A program made the position numbers and the translations under genes. Source: Candidatus Mediterraneibacter intestinipullorum (lineage in GTDB: Bacteria > Bacillota > Clostridia > Lachnospirales > Lachnospiraceae). Taken from it: DNA of 50,281 bases. Positions 1 to 49,804 of this stretch are shown piece by piece. Location of the stretch: NCBI GenBank assembly GCA_019118665.1, contig DWYM01000037.1, forward strand, positions 1-50,281. The letters are read 5' to 3'. Position 1 is the stretch's first letter, and each line of letters starts with the position of its first letter. The notes under the pieces are model-generated. The model searched no databases, was not told the origin of the DNA, and saw only the letters and a list, made by a program, of their open reading frames with translations.

Positions 1-50
1 AGCTGATGATCATACGCTTTTAATGTGATTCTCATTACTTGACTTGCCAT

Positions 51-303
51 AAAAAAAGTCGCCTCCTTTTCGTACTTTTGACTTCAGTACGACAAGCGGT
101 GACTGTACACTCTCCCGTGTGTGTCGTGAGAAACATACACGTTGTTTCATACTTTTCCCTTCTGGTAATCAGTAATCAGTTGTGATTCGTACAGTGACTT
201 GTCGCCAGTTTCCTAACTTGACATTCGCTCCACGGAAAACCCGCCATTGCTTATTTTTTCGCTCCGGCGGCAACCTCACGCTTCATTGCTATCATGTCAC
301 AGC
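51..303 (-). ncRNA. Structured non-coding RNA, copy 1
   Basis: About 250 nt on the minus strand, bounded by its own promoter (310-338) and an intrinsic terminator whose stem occupies about 58-112 and whose U-tract is at 51-57. A second copy in the same orientation lies at 48731-48988. The block at about 181-240 is almost identical in both copies, while flanking stems differ by compensating changes: the stem CCGCC/GGCGG here is CUGCU/AGCAG there, and the terminator arms AGUC/GACU here are AGCC/GGCU there. An AGUU-AGGA-AACU hairpin lies in the conserved core. Size, isolation and housekeeping-type promoter recall large Firmicutes ncRNAs such as the raiA motif, but I could not confirm any family. 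Confidence 0.7.
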
Positions 304-309
304 TCCATT

Positions 310-338
310 AGTATAAAAGATTCAGGGATTTATTTCAA
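310..338 (-). promoter_or_regulatory. Sigma-A promoter of RNA copy 1
   Basis: Minus strand: TTGAAA (333-338), 17-bp spacer, TATACT (310-315). The same -35, spacer length and -10 precede the second RNA copy (48995-49023), although the spacer sequence itself has diverged. This fixes the likely RNA start near 303. Confidence 0.75.
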
Positions 339-537: not shown

Positions 538-2004
538 TTAGAGTTCTACTAATTGAAAAAATGAACGGTTAAGTTCCATAAATCCCATACTCAGCGAAGC
601 GCCATTTGTTGCATTTCCATCATATCTGAGCATATAATTACTATCTTTATTGCTACGGATCAAATATCCCAGCATTTTTCTGTCTTCCACTTTCCAATAT
701 TGATTCTCTGCTCTTGTATTCTCTGCTACAATAACGCTTTTGCCTCCATTCGCATCATCCCATGTAAGAACCCTGCCATCAGTTACACTAACGATCTGAT
801 AGGCATTTTTGCCTTTTTCATAAACCAGATCCCACTGTTGCTGCTGTTCTCCGTTCCATTCCCAGAGGCTTGTCTGCCCGGTGCTTCTCCTATTGTTGTC
901 CACCACCATCTTGGGCGAGAAGACGAGATAGATTTTATACCTTCCCATCTCATCCGTATCGATCAGGTAATCGTTACATTTGATAATACCGTCTATCAGC
1001 CGTGCACCCGGGAAATCTGCTGCCACGATCCCGGTTTTAGAAACTCCTTTGTTCTCTACAAGATTTGCAAACAGCGTGTTAATTCCTTCAAACGCAATAC
1101 TGGACAATTCTCCCACCTGTCCCACACGCGGGAAATCCGGGTAATAAGATGAGAACCCTGGTTCCGTAAGGCCTGTAAGAAGCCTGGGCGCACCAGTCTG
1201 AGGACTGGAATGTCCGCTTGCCACAAAATATGGCATAACGCCTGCCGAACCTGCACTCAGATGATTCAGTGTGACTCCGCTGTTTATAATATCCACCTTT
1301 TTTGCATGTTCCTTTACTTTTTCCCATTTCGAATAGAGATCCCAGTTTGTCCCAAGATCATAGTAATCCTGCGTATTCACATCGCGATAGTTCAGGCCGT
1401 ATACATTCAACGACAGGACATCCGACATAAGAACCAGTTTTCCTCTCATGCTTCCCGGAGTAGGATCCTTTTCCCCCGTAGGCTTCCAGAAAAGACTCTG
1501 ATATCGGTTATAATAATATGTATCAAATACCTTCTTCATCTGAGAATCTGACGCGCTGCTGTTTTCCTGCTTCAACCGCATAATAATCGTTTCCCCCGGG
1601 TGCTGCTGAAGAAAAGTCTGTACCGTTTGGAGCACATTCTCAAAATCATAACCTAAATATACAATTCCATGATGCAGCGGAAATCCGGTATCCGTATATT
1701 TCACGCGGATATCAATGTAACGAATTCCGCTATCTAACTGCTGCTGAAGGTTCATCGTCTGTGTACGAGTATTATCCACAAAACTGAGGTCACTGCGATG
1801 TGACATCGAATCATGCGTTCCCGGAATAGACAGTTCACTTAACCGGGCATTGTCTCTGAGTCCGCTCATCCAATCTGCATTGTTCGAAGCCAGCTGTTCC
1901 TCATGATAATACGCGGTGTTATAGTGTGCAGAAACTTTTTCTGCCGGAAGCAATGCCAAAGCAAAAGCTGCTGCCATTACCATAATGCTTCTCCATTTTT
2001 TCAT
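538..2004 (-). CDS. Secreted phosphatidylinositol-specific phospholipase C with ricin-like tail
   Basis: Predicted to cleave phosphatidylinositol or GPI-type lipids outside the cell. The catalytic X-domain is clear: SIPGTHDSM with the first catalytic histidine near residue 64, and the second histidine in PLHHGIVY near 111. The last ~120 residues look like a beta-trefoil ricin-type carbohydrate-binding domain (QQQQWDL and ENQYWKV repeats). The start at 2004 was chosen over an upstream in-frame start because AAAGGAG lies just before it and a typical signal peptide begins there (MKKWRSIM, hydrophobic stretch, then VSAHY). Protein about 488 aa, the usual length for PI-PLC plus a lectin domain. 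Transcribed alone; terminator at 448-497. Confidence 0.88.
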   Translation of the reverse strand: MKKWRSIMVMAAAFALALLPAEKVSAHYNTAYYHEEQLASNNADWMSGLRDNARLSELSIPGTHDSMSHRSDLSFVDNTRTQTMNLQQQLDSGIRYIDIRVKYTDTGFPLHHGIVYLGYDFENVLQTVQTFLQQHPGETIIMRLKQENSSASDSQMKKVFDTYYYNRYQSLFWKPTGEKDPTPGSMRGKLVLMSDVLSLNVYGLNYRDVNTQDYYDLGTNWDLYSKWEKVKEHAKKVDIINSGVTLNHLSAGSAGVMPYFVASGHSSPQTGAPRLLTGLTEPGFSSYYPDFPRVGQVGELSSIAFEGINTLFANLVENKGVSKTGIVAADFPGARLIDGIIKCNDYLIDTDEMGRYKIYLVFSPKMVVDNNRRSTGQTSLWEWNGEQQQQWDLVYEKGKNAYQIVSVTDGRVLTWDDANGGKSVIVAENTRAENQYWKVEDRKMLGYLIRSNKDSNYMLRYDGNATNGASLSMGFMELNRSFFQLVEL

Positions 2005-2133
2005 AACATACTTTCTCCTTTCCTTTTCCCACAAGTCAGATCGATTCTCTTTTTTCTTTCTGAACCTAACCATTGCTGAACATCCCCATAGACCCCGCCT
2101 CTGGTGTCAGTCGAATCTTTCTGATAGCTGAAC

Positions 2134-42358: not shown

Positions 42359-42994
42359 TCAGTTCATCCGGAAGATGGGGCTTATCTTTTTGTAGATCAG
42401 AACTACGAGCAGCGACACAAGGGCTCCTTTTAGCAGATTGAACGGCGCCACTGCAAATAAAACAAAGGTCGTCAGATCCGTGATGCCGGAATTGACGGCG
42501 CTTCCCATGCCGATCAGGGCGTCTATCGGCATCCCGAAGGCAACGGCATATGTGGGGAGGAGGACAAACGCATTGATGATGCAGCCGACTGCTGTCATCA
42601 GCACAGTCCCCACTGCCATGCCGGCCAGCGCGCTTTTCCTCGTCTTGTTCTTCTTGTAGATCAGACCTGCCGGCACACAGAGAGCGCAGCCTATGATCAG
42701 ATTGGCGATCTCCCCCACCCCGGCAGTGTCCGTGCCTGTGAAAACAAAATTGAGGAGTATCTTTACCAGTTCGATGATAGCGCCCGCAAGCGGCCCCATG
42801 GCAAAGCAGCCTACCATTACGGGCACTTCGCTGAGATCGATCTTGTAAAACGATGGCGCGAATGGGAGGGGAACGTCAAAAAGCATCAGCACGATCGCAA
42901 TTGCCGAAAGCATTCCGATCTTTGCCATCCCCTTTACTCCGAATCTGGTTTCTGTTGTTCCTGTTTCTGTTGTTCCTGTCTGTGTTGTACTCAT
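42359..42994 (-). CDS. ribU: ECF transporter S component RibU (riboflavin)
   Basis: 211 aa, six membrane helices. After a Thr-rich N-terminus come the RibU-type helix LSAIAIVLMLFDVPLPFAPSFYKIDLSEVPVMVG and later ELVKILLNFVFTGT, both typical of riboflavin-specific S components, which team with the shared EcfA/A'/T module. The FMN riboswitch upstream (43185-43320) independently supports the substrate. Start 42994 is chosen for GGAG 8 nt upstream. Confidence 0.92.
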   Translation of the reverse strand: MSTTQTGTTETGTTETRFGVKGMAKIGMLSAIAIVLMLFDVPLPFAPSFYKIDLSEVPVMVGCFAMGPLAGAIIELVKILLNFVFTGTDTAGVGEIANLIIGCALCVPAGLIYKKNKTRKSALAGMAVGTVLMTAVGCIINAFVLLPTYAVAFGMPIDALIGMGSAVNSGITDLTTFVLFAVAPFNLLKGALVSLLVVLIYKKISPIFRMN

Positions 42995-43107
42995 TTTCAA
43001 CTCTCCTCTTTCCGCGCAGCCTGCGCATTTCATATTACTGAAAAAGGTAATCTTCACAGAAATCCCAGGCATAAAAGAGTCCCATCCGCTGCTTGCAGAC
43101 ATAAAGA

Positions 43108-43130
43108 CCCCGGACATATATTGTCCGGGG
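43108..43130 (-). terminator. Riboswitch-controlled terminator
   Basis: CCCCGGACA (43108-43116) pairs with TGTCCGGGG (43122-43130); on the minus strand TCTTTAT follows. It lies between the FMN aptamer and ribU, so it is the likely expression platform that stops transcription when FMN is bound. Confidence 0.7.
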
Positions 43131-43184: not shown

Positions 43185-43320
43185 GAATCTCTTCTCTCAT
43201 CCAGACTATACTGTCGGTACCGGAATTCACTCTCTCATAGAATGTCGCCGGTTCAGCCGCTTATTCAGCGGGTCGCGGACTATACCGCCGGTTGGGACTT
43301 TCACCCGACCCCGAAGATTT
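43185..43320 (-). promoter_or_regulatory. FMN riboswitch (RFN element)
   Basis: Minus strand contains the RFN hallmarks in order: CTTCGGGGTCGGGTGAAAG, ACCGGCGGTATAGTCCGCGA, a variable stem, ACCGGCGACATTC, GAATTCCGGTACCGACAG, TATAGTCTGGATGAGAGAAG. It sits about 190 nt upstream of ribU with a terminator hairpin between, so FMN should switch off riboflavin uptake. Confidence 0.95.
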
Positions 43321-43438
43321 ATTCCTTTTACGCAATATAATATAACTCTTTAAAATCGCGATTTCAAGAGGTTTTTTGGTATTTATGAAATTTTACATTT
43401 TATCGATGACATCCGGCATCCTTCTGTCTGTGAATACT

Positions 43439-44377
43439 CTATGACCGGATACTCCGCTGCTGAATACTCCGCTGCTTACTGAAAAGCCAGCCCATGATTT
43501 CCTCATCCTCCGCGAACAGATTTCCACCACCGTGCCGGACGGTCACACCCTGACTTTCGAAATATTCCGCATCCTTTATGTCCAGTACAAGGAACTCACT
43601 GATCTCTCCCTCAGAAAGCCCTTCCTGACGGTACATCCCATACAGGGTCTGATATGCCTCCGCCGATGGCTCAGACCCATAATACTCATCCGATTATCCG
43701 ACCACAATGTAGACCGGCGTCCTGCTCTCTGCCACCGGCCCATACGCCCCATCCCACTGGGAACTGCAATGGAGATAAGCCGCGAAAAGCTCCGGGCGCT
43801 TCTCCATGACCCGGGACATGATTTCCCCGCCTCCGGAGTATCCCCCCGCATAAACTCTGGATCTATCGATGTTATAACTGGTCAGGAAATATTCCGCAAG
43901 GGCAATAGCCTGGTTCGCTGAAGTCTCTCCCCAGTCCCCAAGCTGAAGCGCCACGACGATCATATCCTGTACATACTCCTGAGCAGCAAATCCAAAATTC
44001 TCGCTGTACAAATTCTCTCCCACTCCCTGAAAATACAGTCCCTCATATCCGGGCAGTGTAAAGAACAGCGCATACGCCTCGCTGCCGTCATAGCTGTCAG
44101 GAATATAGAGATTGTAATGAATGTCACCCTCACTTTCTGAGTGGAGCACATTGTCAAGGATAAATCCCCGGTATTCCTCCGTCCCTTCTGTCACATAGCC
44201 GGTCTGTCCATGCACATACCCACCGGCAGCATCTGTATCGCCATTTCCCGATACCTCCTGCATGTCTGCTTCCGGAGAAGGACGTATCTCCTCCTGAGAA
44301 ATATCTTCTTCATTTCCACACGCACTCAGAAGGAGCATACTTCCTGACAGAAGCAGGCCCATCAGTTTTTTCTTCAT
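43439..44377 (-). pseudogene. Lipoprotein alpha/beta hydrolase with an internal TAA
   Basis: The lipoprotein signal KKKLMGLLLSGSMLLLSACG leads to an esterase/PHB-depolymerase-like domain: ALFFTLPGYEGLYFQGVG, VYAGGYSGGGEIMSRVM (nucleophile Ser in GxSxG). After TPVYIVVG there is a TAA (43694-43696) where GAA (Glu) would be expected, and the same frame continues as SDEYYGSEPSAEAYQTLY to the real end at 43439, including the His-containing VTVRHGGGN. A single base change truncates an otherwise complete 312-aa protein. Confidence 0.8.
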
Positions 44378-44555
44378 ATACACACCTCTTTCAGGAAATA
44401 TTAAAAAATCATCCCTTTTTAATCTGTAATGATTGTAGGATGATCTGCGTGCAGATTGAAGAAAAAATAAGTTCTCAGGTATATACTCCCGGGTTATGTC
44501 CGCTTAAATTGTACTGTACTATTTGGAAATTAAATAATGAAGTTCGCTTTCTCTT

Positions 44556-45032
44556 TTACTGCGTCTTTCTCATAGCAACAGCAGCTTGTATTAATCCTGC
44601 CAATGCCAGGATCACACCTGCGAACAGATAAATATCTTTCAGATCAACAATCTTAAACAGCACGATTAGATAATCCAGACTTCCTTTCCAGAATATTTTA
44701 TCTGTCAGTGAACAGATCGCTCCCGCTTCAAGTAATAACAGCCCGGTCCTGCAAAGAGTGTTATACGCCCCCTGTGCCTTTGATACCCGGATATTGTACT
44801 CCAGGAGAATGAGAAGGATCACATTTATTATAATAAGTATTCCGGTACTGATATTTAATCCCAATTCATTATTAAATATACTCAACTGCGTCTTGTTCAG
44901 ATATGCCCTAAACCCTATCAAGTCAAAATAGCTGTATTCGATATCACTTAAAAACAGCGATACAACAATCTTAATAGCTGCATCAGCAGAAAACATGAGC
45001 AGCAGGGCTACTGATCTTCTTTTCCCCTTCAT
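44556..45032 (-). CDS. Signal-peptidase-II-like (LspA-related) membrane protein
   Basis: 158 aa, four helices. The pattern matches LspA: an N-terminal DAAIKIVVSLFL (LspA: D..tK), then AGAICSLTDKIFWKGSLDYLIV (LspA: GA.gNliDRi..G.V.Df) and DLKDIYLFAGVIL (LspA: N.AD...). Both catalytic Asp positions are present but the Asn residues near them are replaced, so activity is uncertain. It sits at the end of the bacteriocin-type gene cluster, and may process or protect against a locus product. Could also be a diverged paralogue with immunity function. Confidence 0.6.
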   Translation of the reverse strand: MKGKRRSVALLLMFSADAAIKIVVSLFLSDIEYSYFDLIGFRAYLNKTQLSIFNNELGLNISTGILIIINVILLILLEYNIRVSKAQGAYNTLCRTGLLLLEAGAICSLTDKIFWKGSLDYLIVLFKIVDLKDIYLFAGVILALAGLIQAAVAMRKTQ

Positions 45033-45080
45033 AAAGTCACCTCATTATGGATAGTTCCTCAAGTAAATCATCGTTATCCT

Positions 45081-45437
45081 TTACACACCATTTTCTTTTT
45101 TTCCGTTAAAATCTGAATACTTGCTATATATCAGTTTCCCTATATAAGCAGCCACGACAAACAATACATACTGAATAAGAAAGCTGTGCTCCGCCATGAA
45201 AATATTTCTGCCCTCAGTGTGAAAAATAACAAGTGCCGCAATATTATAAGGTATAAATATTCCGTTCCAGATAAAATTGAGCAGATGGCGGTCCGGCTTC
45301 TTTGAAAACCAGATTACCACCAGGATCATTATCGCTATACATATATTGGCATATGTGTAATAATGCCGGAAAATGACCGCCTGAAATATTGCAAATATAA
45401 GGTTTACACCTGCTAGCAGAAACGAAACTCTTTTCAT
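45081..45437 (-). CDS. Small membrane protein, unknown function
   Basis: 118 aa with four predicted helices (FLLAGVNLIFAIFQAVIF, ICIAIMILVVIWF, NGIFIPYNIAALVIF, FLIQYVLFVVAAYIGKLIY). No family recognised. It stands between two other small membrane proteins on the same strand in the bacteriocin region, so an immunity or accessory role is possible. Confidence 0.65.
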   Translation of the reverse strand: MKRVSFLLAGVNLIFAIFQAVIFRHYYTYANICIAIMILVVIWFSKKPDRHLLNFIWNGIFIPYNIAALVIFHTEGRNIFMAEHSFLIQYVLFVVAAYIGKLIYSKYSDFNGKKENGV

Positions 45438-45531
45438 GCTGTATACCTGCCTTTATCAACCTCTTTAAAAGACACTTGTTAATACTATCATTATATACTT
45501 TTTGTTCTCCGGCTTACTGATCCTTTGACAA

Positions 45532-45840
45532 TTACTTTTGAATACGTTTCATATTTACGGCATACAAAGATCCTAAGATGATCATGAGTAATATAGAGAG
45601 ACCATAGGGAACAGGAATCATTGGAATTAAGCATGTTCCTAAAACGAAGAGCGGATCACAAAAAACCTTTTTACTTTTTGTCGATTTATAATAACTATTG
45701 TTGTTATATGCTATGATCACAATGCCTAAAACAAACAGTATTCCCCAAATTACTAAAAATGATTTTGTCTTAATATAATAACCATAGTAACCAGCACTCC
45801 CTATCATACATAAGTAATAACCTAATAACTTATTTTTCAT
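45532..45840 (-). CDS. Small membrane protein coupled to the secreted precursor
   Basis: 102 aa, about four helices (LLGYYLCMIGSAGYYGYYI, FLVIWGILFVLGIVIIAY, LFVLGTCLIPMIPV, LSILLMIILGSLYAV). Its ATG overlaps the precursor's TGA (ATGA, 45837-45840), so it was translated together with that protein. Tight coupling of a bacteriocin-like precursor to a small membrane protein is typical for immunity genes. No family recognised. Confidence 0.7.
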   Translation of the reverse strand: MKNKLLGYYLCMIGSAGYYGYYIKTKSFLVIWGILFVLGIVIIAYNNNSYYKSTKSKKVFCDPLFVLGTCLIPMIPVPYGLSILLMIILGSLYAVNMKRIQK

Positions 45841-46469
45841 TTCCAATACCCAAATTCAAGCGGCGGATAAGATAATACCGGCTTTATATAAATCCCTTGA
45901 CCAGTGGCGATTGCATATGTGACCCTGCCACATAATTCTACAAGCGATGGTGCAGCAGCTACTGAAGCAATACTTCCAATAACGAACCCTACAGGTCCTG
46001 AAAATGCTGATGTTAGAGCTGTCAATGCCGCTGCCATTGCAGCTGGACCAGCAGACGCTGCGGTTCACATTACTGCCAATGCTCCACCCGCTAGTTCATC
46101 ATAACTAATATACAATGCACCATTCTTTATAGATGCCCTTGTCATTGGAATGCCAGAGCATTCATCGTAAACCGCTTTACCAATCACACCTGTCATGAGA
46201 CGATCATACTGTTCCTGAGTAAAGTGAAAATCATTAAGCAGCGCATCCTCTGATAAAGAAATCTTCAATATTTCATTCTCAATATAATAATAATCTGCTA
46301 CTGATACCACTTTTTCAAGATATTCCCCATCGTGATCTGACCACTGAAGATCAGCAGTATAATATGCCTCACCGACTTCTGTTTCCGCTGCAAAAGCGCT
46401 TACCGCAAATAGATTTAAACATATAGCTACAGCAACAATCCCTGATAATAATCTTTTAATTATTTTCAT
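45837..46469 (-). pseudogene. Sec-secreted bacteriocin-like precursor with an internal TGA
   Basis: The protein has a Sec signal (MKIIKRLLSGIVAVAICLNL, VSAFAAET), a soluble acidic middle of about 100 residues, and a hydrophobic Gly/Ala-rich C-terminus. TGA at 46065-46067 interrupts it after SYDELAGGALAVM; the frame stays open for 75 more codons (TAASAGPAAMAAALTAL, FSGPVGFVIGSIASVAAAP, ending EFGYWK). TGA is a normal stop elsewhere in the window, so this is a nonsense mutation. AAAGGAG precedes the start. The intact form would be about 210 aa, perhaps a secreted pore-forming peptide with a pro-region. Confidence 0.65.
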
Positions 46470-46486
46470 ATCTTTTTCTCCTTTAA

Positions 46487-46543
46487 TATTTTCTGTAAGC
46501 CAGAACAATACTGACTTTTTACAAAACTTTATATCTTCTTCGT
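46487..46543 (-). repeat. Precursor leader/promoter segment repeated at the window's right end
   Basis: The ~55 bp just upstream of the secreted precursor's ribosome binding site recur with about nine mismatches at 50228-50281, in the same orientation. On the minus strand both contain TTTTGTAAAAA, CAGTATTG and TTACAGAAAA blocks. Probably a shared regulatory or leader sequence of bacteriocin genes. Confidence 0.6.
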
Positions 46544-46632
46544 TATATAGAAATGAAATAGAACAAAGCTCCAATAGCCCCTAGCAGCACTCCACCAATG
46601 AATATGTATTTTAAAATTTCTTTAAAATTCAT
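46543..46632 (-). CDS. Small hydrophobic peptide, 29 aa
   Basis: Begins MNFKEILKYIFIGGVLLG and ends YFISI: a cationic head and one glycine-containing helix, without a double-glycine leader. Its ATG overlaps an upstream TAA (TAATG at 46630-46634), suggesting coupling to a gene now reduced to about 25 codons (46632-46709, ending ASIEEGYAK). It could be a leaderless bacteriocin, an immunity peptide or a small membrane regulator. Confidence 0.5.
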   Translation of the reverse strand: MNFKEILKYIFIGGVLLGAIGALFYFISI

Positions 46633-46753
46633 TACTTTGCGTATCCTTCTTCTATAGAAGCATTATCAGCTTCTTTTAAAAATATGTTGTCCGCAACATT
46701 CAGAATAGTTTATAAACAATATATTTTTCACTTACTCGCTATGATGTTTCAAA

Positions 46754-46880
46754 TTAGCCGAAAGCCCATTTACACAGATAATATCCACCGACTACACAAG
46801 CTGCTCCTAATACAATACCACCAGCTCCTACTCCTGCCAATCAGGAGAAGGTCGCAAAACCTTCGCCCGCATCGTTTTAA
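46754..46880 (-). pseudogene. Broken class II bacteriocin precursor
   Basis: The C-terminal part is clear: LAGVGAGGIVLGAACVVGG then YYLCKWAFG and a TAA at 46754-46756. The GxxxG-rich helix resembles the two intact precursors upstream. A TGA at 46841-46843 (possibly from TGG) and a frameshift farther upstream separate it from any leader. Two Cys could form a disulfide. Confidence 0.55.
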
Positions 46881-46907
46881 ACGTATCAGTTTTGCACTAA
46901 TTCTGTC

Positions 46908-47096
46908 TCATGCCTTTTTAGTTTGTAATAGCCCCCAAAAAACATTCATTCCTGCTAAGCATAGAGTAACAAATATGGTTTCTGCACTTATATTTTTGTA
47001 TTGTATCATCATATAAATCTGATCGATCACACAGAATATAAGTATCACAGACATGATTACAAAAATGTTTTTCTTAAAAAAATTAATTTCCCTCAA
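46908..47096 (-). CDS. Small membrane protein, likely immunity-type
   Basis: 62 aa with two helices (IFVIMSVILIFCVIDQIYMMI and AETIFVTLCLAGMNVFWGLL) and basic ends. The start appears to be TTG at 47096, with AAGAAGG 6 nt upstream. It lies 53 bp after a bacteriocin precursor on the same strand; small basic two-helix proteins in that position are commonly immunity proteins. No family assigned. Confidence 0.55.
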   Translation of the reverse strand: MREINFFKKNIFVIMSVILIFCVIDQIYMMIQYKNISAETIFVTLCLAGMNVFWGLLQTKKA

Positions 47097-47149
47097 ACTT
47101 TACCTTCTTTCTGAATAGCATAATCGGAGCATTAAGGTGACCAGACGTA

Positions 47150-47320
47150 TTATTTATACCCTAAATAGAATCCCAGACCTGCCGCCCCACCAACTGCAGT
47201 TACTCCACCTGCAATCGCTGCTATCGCCTTAGCTCCAACCAACGTTACTCCAAAAATAGTAAGTGTAATCACTCCACCTTCTACTTCCTGTAGTTCATCA
47301 TAATTTAAATTTTCTAACAT
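47150..47320 (-). CDS. Class II bacteriocin precursor with double-glycine leader (B)
   Basis: 56 aa. Leader MLENLNYDELQEVEGG (16 residues, cut after GG by a C39 peptidase) and a 40-residue core rich in Gly/Ala starting VITLTIFGVTLVG and ending LGFYLGYK, with GxxxG-type spacing typical of two-peptide (class IIb) bacteriocins. GGAGG is about 10 nt before the ATG. It follows precursor A by 24 bp, so the two probably form a two-component bacteriocin. Confidence 0.8.
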   Translation of the reverse strand: MLENLNYDELQEVEGGVITLTIFGVTLVGAKAIAAIAGGVTAVGGAAGLGFYLGYK

Positions 47321-47344
47321 ACTTATTTACCTCCTACATCATTC

Positions 47345-47542
47345 TTATCTTCCTTGAGCAGATTTAACATGACTTCCCAGTGTGTAGCCGGCCATATAAG
47401 CTCCTCCTATTAATGCTGCCCCTTTAGCTAAGGCTGCTCCTGTAATAGTCAGTGCTCCAATCACGATGACAAAACCACCATTAGTACGATCCATTTCCTC
47501 GTAAGTCATTTCTGAAAAAGCATTGTTTTTTGTTAATTCCAT
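47345..47542 (-). CDS. Class II bacteriocin precursor with double-glycine leader (A)
   Basis: 65 aa. Leader MELTKNNAFSEMTYEEMDR then TNGG, with the hydrophobic spacing typical of C39 substrates; the core (FVIVIGALTITGAALAKG to SHVKSAQGR) is a hydrophobic, Gly/Ala-rich helix with a basic C-terminus. AAGGAGG precedes the start. First gene behind the LytTR-type promoter at 47704-47772. Both exporter genes in the region are fragments, so export would need a transporter elsewhere. Confidence 0.82.
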   Translation of the reverse strand: MELTKNNAFSEMTYEEMDRTNGGFVIVIGALTITGAALAKGAALIGGAYMAGYTLGSHVKSAQGR

Positions 47543-47703
47543 AAAATGATACCTCCTTATATATTTTGTATTCTAACAATCTTTAAAGCCGTACGCTCTT
47601 TAAAAATTATCGTGATACCTTATTTAAGAAACGATTCTTAAGACAACAAATGTTTCCGCCTATTTCTCAAATCGCATATGCCCACTATTTTTCCTCTGAT
47701 CTC

Positions 47704-47772
47704 ACTATACAGTGCTTACTGATCCTTTGCAATACACCTGTGCTATTTGGTACTTTATCCGTGCTATTTAGT
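47704..47772 (-). promoter_or_regulatory. Bacteriocin promoter with 21-bp-spaced direct repeats (LytTR type)
   Basis: Minus strand: ACTAAATAGCAC (47761-47772) and ACCAAATAGCAC (47740-47751), exactly 21 bp apart, lie just upstream of TTGCAA (47727-47732), 17-bp spacer, TATAGT (47704-47709). Two direct repeats two helical turns apart at the -35 edge are how LytTR regulators (ComE, BlpR, AgrA) bind. A single AAAATAGCAC box is also present upstream of the C39 fragment, near 50112-50121. Confidence 0.7.
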
Positions 47773-47792
47773 ATAATAACAAAGTTTTTGCA

Positions 47793-48447
47793 TCACTCAT
47801 CCACCAGGTTGATCTTCTCCAGAAGATACCCAAGCACGCTCTTCTCTCCTGTCACCAGCTTCGCCCTAACTGCCATCCCCTGTATAAACTCTGCAGGCTT
47901 TTCCCCCTTTGCACTGCCGCGGACCGTGATCGTAGCCTCGACTTCATAGCAGCCGGTCCCGGTATCCTTATTCACCTTGATATCTTTGGAAACGGATGTC
48001 ACTTCGCCTTCAAATATCCCATACCCCTCTGTCTGGGAATAGGGCGCCACATCATATCTGATCTTCTGTCCCTTGCGCACCGAACCGATATCCTGGTTTT
48101 CTACATAGATAACTGTCTTGAACACACCTTCTCCGTCCGGAACAATACTTCCGATCTGCTCCCCGGCTGACACATGGTCCCCCTTTGTTTTTTCCACGCT
48201 CAGATTCAGATATCCGTCTGACTGCGCTTTTACATCACACTCTTTTATCCTCGCCTGCAGCGTGTTGAGCGTATCTTCATATTCTTTTTTCTGGCTTTCA
48301 TATGTATTGATCTCGGTATTCACCGCATTCTTTTCATTTATTATGATCTGATCGATACTCAGCTCCAGAGAGCCATTATTCAAGCCTGCCAGATTGTTTT
48401 CCGCCTCACTGCGGCTTGTCCCCAGAGAGCTAAGGTTGCTCTGATAA
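47793..48447 (-). pseudogene. HlyD-type bacteriocin export accessory protein, 5'-truncated
   Basis: The C-terminal ~215 residues of a LcnD/BlpB-like membrane-fusion protein: a coiled-coil (NLSSLGTSRSEAENNLAG, EINTYESQKKEYEDTLNTL), a lipoyl-like motif (AQSDGYLNLSVEKTKGDHV), and the beta-barrel end (FIQGMAVRAKLVTGEKSV). The N-terminal anchor and first half are absent: the gene stops abruptly near 48445 where a different truncated gene begins on the opposite strand. It would have worked with the C39 ABC transporter. Confidence 0.8.
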
Positions 48448-48727
48448 AGACACCCTCACAGTAGGAGCTATCGGCGGTACGATCATAGAATTCGTTGCCG
48501 CAACTGCACTGTTCATATATCGGAAAACACTGGATCAGCTGAACCACTACTATCGTTCTCTGCACGAGAACGAACGTTTTCTTTCAATTCTGAATCTGAC
48601 TGCCCGGGTATCCCGCGGCAAACAGGACGATATCTACCTGAAGATCATCGAATCACAGCTGTCATATGTAAATCAGGAAAACTGGATGAATATGAATAAA
48701 AAAAGCGACAGTACAGAAACACCATAA
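48434..48727 (+). pseudogene. 5'-truncated membrane protein, TRADD-N-associated-like
   Basis: No start codon; the frame is open from 48434 and ends at TAA 48725-48727. The protein reads TVGAIGGTIIEFVAATALFI, a membrane helix, then YRKTLDQLNHYYRSLHENER and a soluble helical tail. This resembles the TRADD-N-associated membrane domain found in bacterial conflict/immune-type proteins; I rate the match as moderate. Its 5' end meets the truncated 5' end of the HlyD gene at about 48440-48450. Confidence 0.5.
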
Positions 48728-48730
48728 ATC

Positions 48731-48988
48731 AAAAAAGCCACCGCTTGCCGTACTTGTAACTTAGTACGAAAAGCGGTGGCTGTACACCCTCCTCTGTGTA
48801 TCGCGCGAAACATACACGGCGCTCTCGCTTTTTCAACTCCTGGCATAGTACTGTTCTACATATAAAAATGAGAGACTGTTGTGATTCGTACAGTGAATTG
48901 TCGCCAGTTTCCTAACTTGACATTCGCTCCACGGAAAACCTGCTCTTGCTTATGTTTTTGCATCAGCAGCAATCTCACGCTTCACAGC
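48731..48988 (-). ncRNA. Structured non-coding RNA, copy 2
   Basis: Second copy of the RNA at 51-303, same strand. Promoter at 48995-49023; terminator stem 48737-48781 with a T-run at 48731-48736 on the minus strand. The terminator's 5' arm (CACCGCUU) can also pair with AAGCG near the RNA's 5' end, so alternative folding is possible. The hairpin GUGUAU/AUACAC near 48800-48825 keeps pairing with different bases from copy 1. No protein gene is encoded immediately downstream except the HlyD fragment. Confidence 0.7.
48737..48781 (-). terminator. Intrinsic terminator of RNA copy 2
   Basis: Long hairpin (about 18 bp with one mismatch; arms AGCCACCGCTT... at one end and GCGGTGGCT at the other) followed by T6 on the minus strand. 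The corresponding hairpin of copy 1 is at about 58-112 with T7. Confidence 0.8.
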
Positions 48989-48994
48989 TTTATC

Positions 48995-49023
48995 AGTATA
49001 GCGGGTGGTGGAATTTATTTCAA
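48995..49023 (-). promoter_or_regulatory. Sigma-A promoter of RNA copy 2
   Basis: Minus strand TTGAAA (49018-49023), 17-bp spacer, TATACT (48995-49000), identical boxes to those of copy 1 at 310-338. Confidence 0.75.
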
Positions 49024-49042
49024 AAGATTTTTGAGAAATATT

Positions 49043-49804
49043 CTATTTTTTAGTACATTTTTTAATTTCAATCCCTGCTGAAATCAAACCACCCAATACC
49101 AACGCAATGCTGATCATTACGGTTCTTTCTACAGGTAATCTTGGAAAAATAACCCCACCAAATAAATTTGTCATCATATGCAAATAAATTGCATATTTCA
49201 CTTTTCCTGTTCTTACAACAATCGCGCCACAGATACATCCTACAAATGTCGAATAAAGCAATTGTTCTATATTCAAGTGCATAACTCCAAATAAAAATCC
49301 ACTCAGCAACACAGCTTTACACGTTCCATATGGGAGAAGATTTTCCAGAAGAACCTTCCTAAACAGTATTTCCTCTATAATAGGAGAGATAATCACTGCG
49401 CATAGAATCAGCCAGTAGACAGGAATATTTTCTGTAAGATTTCCGATATGATCGGATGCCACAATTTCTTTACCAAATAAAATATTGATGATATCTATAA
49501 TCCATTCTGTAAAAAAGCTGAAAGCTACAGAACCTCCTAATATGATCAGACAGTAACGAAGCCATTCTATAAGGCAAGGTTCTCGCACCTTCACGAGTCC
49601 ATTTAACTTTTTCTTTCTACAACGCTTCGTACTCCCCCCATACAAAGCCAGCCATAATACGCTATATATATTGCTGCTCGCTACATACACAGGTCCTTCT
49701 GGAAACTTTATCAGCCTGCAAAGTGCCATGACTATCATTCCAGCAAATGTTGCAGGAATCATAGTTATAAATAATATAAACATCTGCTTTAAGATTATTT
49801 TCAT
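49043..49804 (-). CDS. CPBP family intramembrane metalloprotease
   Basis: 253 aa, about seven to eight helices. The CPBP/Abi motifs are complete: EEILFR (EExxxR), FGVMHLN (FxxxH) and HMMTNLFG (HxxxN). Such proteases process prenylated or other membrane proteins and in Gram-positive bacteriocin loci often serve as immunity or maturation factors (for example in plantaricin loci). ATAGGAG precedes the start. It lies between the C39 fragment and RNA copy 2, so it fits an immunity or maturation role here. Confidence 0.88.
   Translation of the reverse strand: MKIILKQMFILFITMIPATFAGMIVMALCRLIKFPEGPVYVASSNIYSVLWLALYGGSTKRCRKKKLNGLVKVREPCLIEWLRYCLIILGGSVAFSFFTEWIIDIINILFGKEIVASDHIGNLTENIPVYWLILCAVIISPIIEEILFRKVLLENLLPYGTCKAVLLSGFLFGVMHLNIEQLLYSTFVGCICGAIVVRTGKVKYAIYLHMMTNLFGGVIFPRLPVERTVMISIALVLGGLISAGIEIKKCTKK

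Follow-up and report, generated by a model that had tools for sequence, protein, structure and literature searches.

An orphaned relative of the S10-Clostridia leader in a Mediterraneibacter contig that also carries an ordinary rpsJ leader

Two S10-Clostridia leader copies in one contig

The window, that is the whole stretch of DNA analysed (50,281 bases, Candidatus Mediterraneibacter intestinipullorum), covers the whole of contig C12 from a metagenome-assembled genome that counts 123 contigs and is 83% complete. It carries two units of about 255 nt in a shared orientation (51-303 and 48731-48988, called here copy 1 and copy 2; Table 1), both encoded on the minus strand, each behind a TTGAAA-N17-TATACT promoter and with a near-identical core in common. 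The original prediction had described these units correctly, without stating the strand, and had taken them for two paralogues of a large non-coding RNA, with the raiA motif as a guess. The comparison with Rfam that it proposed was carried out, and both copies match RF03136, the S10-Clostridia ribosomal protein leader, over the whole model of 81 positions, with 90.2 bits for copy 1 and 82.9 bits for copy 2 (gathering score, 35.1 bits). Together with an FMN riboswitch these are the sole matches above the Rfam cut-offs in the window, where raiA, ROOL, OLE, HEARO and other large non-coding RNAs yielded none, and the raiA guess was not sustained. The family is now named, and the notion of two paralogues proved half right: copy 1 is an mRNA leader of the ordinary kind and copy 2 a rare orphaned relative of such leaders. 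The FMN riboswitch (43322..43185, minus strand, 96.9 bits) lies upstream of the gene for the substrate-specific component of an ECF transporter (42359-43117, minus strand) and probably represents ordinary control of riboflavin transport.

The minus strand that follows the U-run of copy 1 reads ATGGCAAGTCAAGTAATGAG... and translates to MASQVMRITLKAYDHQ, the start of ribosomal protein S10; the A of the start codon (ATG, 50..48) is the base right after the U-run. Only 16 codons of rpsJ are present before the contig ends, and a family search for rpsJ in this genome gave no match. Some leader sequence was found in 51 of 58 genus genomes. Seven of these hold pieces at contig ends that were left unaligned (G003, G014, G015, G019, G030, G069 and G071), G078 shows only the orphan, and the other 43 gave 44 linked leaders, two of them from G061. 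With the exception of the three orphans, all sufficiently long genus leaders display the same succession of promoter, core, peripheral hairpins, hairpin with AAAAGGAGG, U-run and ATG. The Shine-Dalgarno hairpin sequence AAAAGGAGG occurs in 43 of the 44 linked leaders, the remaining one (G074) being cut at that site; G074 was left out of the energy, invariant-column and later pair counts, which include 43 linked leaders and three orphans. Among 40 wider loci, 20 were usable (19 from the family and one from the order; the core pattern was unmatched in the other 20), and all 20 end in AAGGAGG...ATG. Judged by its sequence, copy 1 is an ordinary rpsJ leader and no independent unit. Because of the rpsJ start and the placement of the Shine-Dalgarno sequence, its hairpin is an attenuator or a ribosome-binding-site hairpin and no simple transcript end. 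Of the intrinsic terminators predicted for both units, only that of copy 2, a clean stem at 48736-48781, stands as such. It should be noted that the automatic terminator scan listed neither hairpin; it accepts loops of up to 8 nt and apparently no interrupted stems.

Several observations concern the S10 locus itself. The S10 loci of the window and of L073 (G061:C83) are 98.7% identical over 4 kb and differ in the peripheral domain between core and terminator (window about 110-185), which is of a short TGATTACTGATTACC type in the window and of a long ATCTCG type in G061; this peripheral module may have been swapped by recombination between S10 loci. A gene whose product combines a PI-PLC-X domain with a ricin-type lectin domain (538-2073, minus strand) adjoins the S10 operon, and a hairpin of 20 pairs followed by a U-run at 449-496 (AAGGCCGATAT...ATATCGGCCTT) is probably the terminator downstream of this gene. 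In L006, L021, L022, L024, L087 and other metagenome contigs of the genus, the sequence stops at most a few hundred bases from the S10 leader or shortly after rpsJ begins, a pattern suggesting that this conserved point is where assemblies break.

Neither rpsJ nor another ribosomal protein gene was found behind copy 2, which is followed only by a 26-aa frame and, beyond it, by a gene fragment in convergent orientation and a truncated HlyD-type gene. The same sequence stands behind the orphan in G061, and also in G078 up to the end of that contig, so that in the DNA available none of the three is followed by rpsJ. On the other side, a gene for a CPBP membrane protein runs in the direction of copy 2 and stops 55 bp before its estimated start.

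Table 1. Features of the two leader loci in the window
Feature	Position	Strand	Basis or remark
rpsJ start, MASQVMRITLKAYDHQ...	1..50	-	cut by contig end
Copy 1, S10 (rpsJ) operon leader RNA	51..303	-	RF03136 match 294..199, 90.2 bits; rpsJ start follows
Copy 1 attenuator-type hairpin with the rpsJ Shine-Dalgarno sequence	57..104	-	U-run to 51; about -17.8 kcal/mol
Copy 1 promoter TTGAAA-N17-TATACT, S10 operon promoter	310..338	-	same arrangement in genus leaders
Truncated HlyD-type bacteriocin-export gene	47793..48443	-	junction with membrane-protein fragment at 48443/48446
C-terminal fragment of a membrane-protein gene, convergent to copy 2	48446..48727	+	weak CyanoTRADDas_TM match (24.2 bits, just below the Pfam cut-off of 24.3)
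Captured S10 regulatory cassette without rpsJ	48728..49057	-	BLAST block boundaries against genus S10 leaders
Copy 2, orphan S10-leader RNA	48731..48988	-	RF03136 match 48993..48898, 82.9 bits; start estimated from promoter
Copy 2 near-perfect terminator hairpin, Shine-Dalgarno sequence lost	48736..48781	-	-29.5 kcal/mol; -36.0 in the G078 orthologue
Site of the 14-nt deletion, which removes the conserved 5' element (TGACAT..) complementary to core AUGUCA	48984..48985	-	alignments
Copy 2 promoter TTGAAA-N17-TATACT	48995..49023	-	hexamers and spacer kept
CPBP (Rce1-like) membrane protein upstream of copy 2	49043..49804	-	last codons from the captured cassette

Rarity and origin of the orphan copy

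A DNA search of the genus found the orphan with its flanks in three of 58 Mediterraneibacter genomes (G000, G061:C8 and G078:C49), and its surroundings in G061:C8 and G078:C49 are respectively 99.6% and 96.3% identical to the window. G061 is probably a mixed bin, because it holds two further leaders with rpsJ, one of them on a contig 98.7% identical to the start of the window. The orphan carriers thus amount to three metagenome-assembled genomes, two of which are probably one population (G061:C8 and G000 may share this origin). When contigs of 84,980 species were scanned for the pattern of the orphan terminator, two records were obtained, both from Mediterraneibacter (Candidatus M. avicola and an uncultured species), and no carrier beyond those already known, in a scan that may exclude the genome of the window itself. 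Searches with RF03136 matched 51 of 61 genomes among relatives, 363 of 397 in the family and 221 of 391 in the class, and a second copy appeared in none of the matched genomes but the window's own; these samples overlap, and weak second copies could be missed with their stricter filters, the few candidates scored per genome and incomplete genomes, the orphans of G061 (which has three copies) and G078 having come from the separate genus DNA search. In the literature searched, no title on an orphan or duplicated S10 leader stood among the matches listed, and the term 'S10-Clostridia' was not found in the paper texts searched.

We then considered where copy 2 descends from. In the leader tree, the three orphans are monophyletic (100/100) and lie inside a clade of 28 leaders (97/97), whereas copy 1 belongs to the other clade. 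G002, G067, G076 and G034 contribute the leaders closest to the orphans, a grouping that is weakly supported (86/76). In BLAST, the orphan shares 84% identity with the G002 leader across the cassette and about 71% with copy 1. Copy 2 is thus no duplicate of copy 1 made within the genome, since the tree groups it with leaders of other species and its identity to one of these is higher (84% against 71%), and the cassette was therefore captured from another lineage. The branch leading to the orphans is long (0.19, compared to a median end branch of 0.041), and an unsampled donor leader could account for part of their differences.

The cassette (49057 to 48728) is homologous to S10 leaders, beginning 34 bp ahead of the -35 box and reaching approximately to the rpsJ start codon. 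Its upstream junction falls within the CPBP gene, whose last codons are the A-rich stretch that precedes the S10 promoter; the homologues of this gene in G007, G016 and G027 continue differently. A second junction, at 48443/48446, links the truncated HlyD gene with the membrane-protein gene fragment. Further upstream, the HlyD reading frame is open for no more than 24 codons, compared to 212-347 in six homologues and 48 in G010, and the G010 homologue of the membrane-protein fragment is a 242-aa frame. In G010, the HlyD and membrane-protein genes flank a bacteriocin-type set (an ABC transporter with a C39 peptidase, a GHKL kinase and a LytTR regulator), and therefore the region of the window looks like a rearranged, shared bacteriocin locus. 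A stretch of 4.5 kb (43899-48443) is 99.4% identical to G010:C29 (L096); this bacteriocin-type locus was probably transferred recently, and in the window it is followed by the junction at 48443/48446. Despite the 99.4% identity over this stretch, the S10 region of G010 is only about 85-89% identical to that of the window. Taken together, the tree, the identities and the junctions show copy 2, at the level of sequence, as the descendant of a leader from another Mediterraneibacter lineage, promoter included, captured by a rearranged bacteriocin-type region.

Mobile carriers of the cassette were looked for as well. Two matches in phage collections lie on unverified scaffolds of faecal origin, each of which ends in a leader with an ordinary Shine-Dalgarno hairpin, and the single plasmid match is a replicon of Agathobacter rectalis in which the leader precedes rpsJ and the following genes of the S10 operon; neither a phage nor a plasmid was retained as carrier. 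A first pattern scan of viral contigs gave 28 stretches, unrelated, the match stopping short of the core, and a second gave four stretches, likewise unrelated, the core string being absent on the strand read.

Conserved and altered parts of the orphan

The substitutions of the orphan are unevenly spread. None of the 42 invariant columns of the 43-nt core, which runs from GGTTTTCCG to GGCGACAA, is changed, whereas 16 of 77 are changed in the stretch behind it (Fisher P = 6e-4, with invariant columns counted against the 43 linked leaders, the G061 row standing for the orphan, and the split between core and platform set after inspection of the alignment). When the Shine-Dalgarno arm was left out, 8 of 59 downstream invariant columns were changed (P = 0.019). 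Before the core, 12 of 32 are altered, 11 of these corresponding to the 14-nt deletion. The promoter hexamers and their spacer are intact in copy 2.

Two parts have been lost. The 5' element TGACAT/TGGCAT is present in 44 of 44 linked genus leaders and in none of the three orphans, and TG(A/G)CAT is also found in all 20 readable leaders at the level of the family or order, where it is the longest complement to the core in 11 and is equalled or exceeded by another stretch in 9. As the element is universal in the leaders read, its loss may be a sign of decay. The Shine-Dalgarno arm of copy 2, for its part, has been replaced by an almost exact complement of the 5' arm. The resulting terminator hairpin reaches -29.5 kcal/mol in copy 2 and -36.0 kcal/mol, with 19 unbroken pairs, in G078, compared to -17.8 and -18.7 kcal/mol in linked leaders. 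A single template-switch event during replication could have produced this near-perfect arm.

The original prediction had also listed compensating base changes in several stems as evidence of selection on RNA structure. These differences are present in the sequence, but they are mostly differences between leader lineages and do not point to selection specific to the paralogues. One stem reads CCGCC/GGCGG in 12, CUGCC/GGCAG in 16 and CUGCU/AGCAG in 6 of the 47 aligned genus leaders, the last group including the three orphans; because all three paired states occur among genus leaders, the stem differences reflect the structure of ribosomal protein leaders. Structure is under selection in the RF03136 family as a whole, as recorded by the Rfam model, whose curated score both copies exceed, and as this alternation of paired states across the genus illustrates.

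For copy 2 alone, the pair tests did not extend this conclusion. In the orphan, 64 of 72 pairs are formed, compared to 62.1 under a null that places the same 33 substitutions at random on the consensus structure (P = 0.26), and 51 of 56, compared to 50.3, when the terminator is excluded (P = 0.45). These tests were run on 21 linked leaders sharing one peripheral type, the ancestor being represented by the majority of five near leaders, and on an alignment that a one-base deletion in the orphan shifts by one base in the terminator arm. Two double compensations were counted outside the terminator, a number that is not significant (P = 0.10). Sequence similarity between the core and 23S rRNA was no better than that of shuffled sequences, 108 of 300 of which scored as high. 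In the course of this comparison, the 23S rRNA model matched the single-contig genome G018 mostly as separate pieces, possibly broken rRNA copies, insertions or masked stretches.

Possible roles of the orphan

The leaders of ribosomal protein operons are generally described as cis-acting. We tentatively propose, at less than even probability, that copy 2 may instead act on its own as a decoy, capturing the ribosomal protein by which the S10 operon is repressed, putatively uL4 by analogy with E. coli. Copy 2 would be transcribed from its own promoter as a predicted stand-alone RNA of about 255 nt and, having lost the 5' strand for the alternative pairing, would fold into the core conformation only. 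It would always terminate, and its core would bind the putative repressor, so that the feedback on the S10 operon would be weakened or free ribosomal protein would be held. The proposal draws on the unchanged core, the kept promoter and the stronger terminator; the chance-level pair retention, the null result of the 23S comparison, the loss of the 5' element, the long branch and the rarity of the orphan argue against it.

As for the ligand, PMC10931766 describes, citing work on E. coli, how uL4 binds the leader of the S10 operon and acts on its transcription as well as its translation; it is by analogy only that the S10-Clostridia leaders may be given a ligand of the same class. A 2020 paper on novel ribosomal leaders treats its Clostridia examples as extending the S10 leader already known from Firmicutes (PMC7247131), and we infer that RF03136 is this Clostridia motif. 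Compared to the RF03136 leaders, copy 1 is alike in its position before rpsJ, its Shine-Dalgarno hairpin and its 5' element, whereas copy 2 is devoid of all three and has a near-perfect terminator in addition. The E. coli S10 leader (PMC10931766) belongs to the same operon, copy 1 also having a terminator-like hairpin, and is a likely model for the putative ligand; no shared RNA family is claimed. Rli55, which sequesters EutV, and EutX, which acts similarly, are precedents for leader-derived RNAs that hold a protein (PMC8383071). If it is a decoy, copy 2 would resemble Rli55, EutX and CsrB-type decoys (PMC8383071) in copying the binding site of an RNA-binding regulator; it is not claimed as their homologue, has no riboswitch and would have a ribosomal protein as target. 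The broader scenario, in which a ribosomal protein leader would have escaped its operon and, by losing the switching strand and the ribosome-binding arm, become a free, constitutively terminated sRNA decoy locked in the ligand-binding fold, titrating a ribosomal protein and uncoupling the feedback, within a rearranged bacteriocin region shared between species, is somewhat less probable than the decoy role by itself.

Copy 2 could also be a neutral remnant, that is a leader fragment carried by illegitimate recombination within a variable bacteriocin region and too recent for its core to have decayed. We hold this to be nearly as likely as the decoy, though again short of an even chance. The mosaic junctions on both sides (HlyD/membrane protein at 48443/48446 and the rewritten 3' end of the CPBP gene at 49057), the presence of the orphan in only three of 58 genus genomes, the disappearance of the 5' element and of the Shine-Dalgarno sequence, and pair retention at chance level are all in line with a remnant. 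Against it stand the uneven distribution of the changes (0 of 42 invariant columns in the core versus 16 of 77 behind it), the kept promoter, and a terminator that has not decayed and is stronger than those of the linked leaders. A third reading, in which the captured piece persists solely because it supplies the CPBP gene with a strong terminator, the core RNA having no role, seems unlikely: the CPBP gene lies directly upstream in the same direction, a strong hairpin and then a U-run follow on that strand, and behind the homologues in G007, G016 and G027 the short stretch read contains no leader, but such a terminator would need neither an unchanged core nor an intact promoter. Finally, an artefact of assembly or binning, with a foreign right end on the contig, is very improbable. 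The genome is metagenome-assembled, incomplete and split into many contigs, and identity to relatives varies along this one; yet 33.9-49.6 kb is collinear with G061:C8 (99.6-99.9%) and, gaps aside, 1-29.4 kb with G010:C30 (29.4-33.9 kb lies outside both comparisons), G078 has the same cassette in a different arrangement, and the orphan would exist in some strain even if misbinned. From its collinearity with G010:C30 and G061:C8, the contig looks sound.

Should copy 2 prove a remnant, it would amount to a minor curiosity; copy 1 is ordinary either way. If the decoy proposal is true, a leader captured by horizontal transfer that has kept its promoter and core and lost the parts that control a gene would constitute a natural experiment in the passage from a cis-regulator to a trans-acting RNA. 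Copy 2 also lends itself directly to testing where in the S10-Clostridia leader the protein binds.
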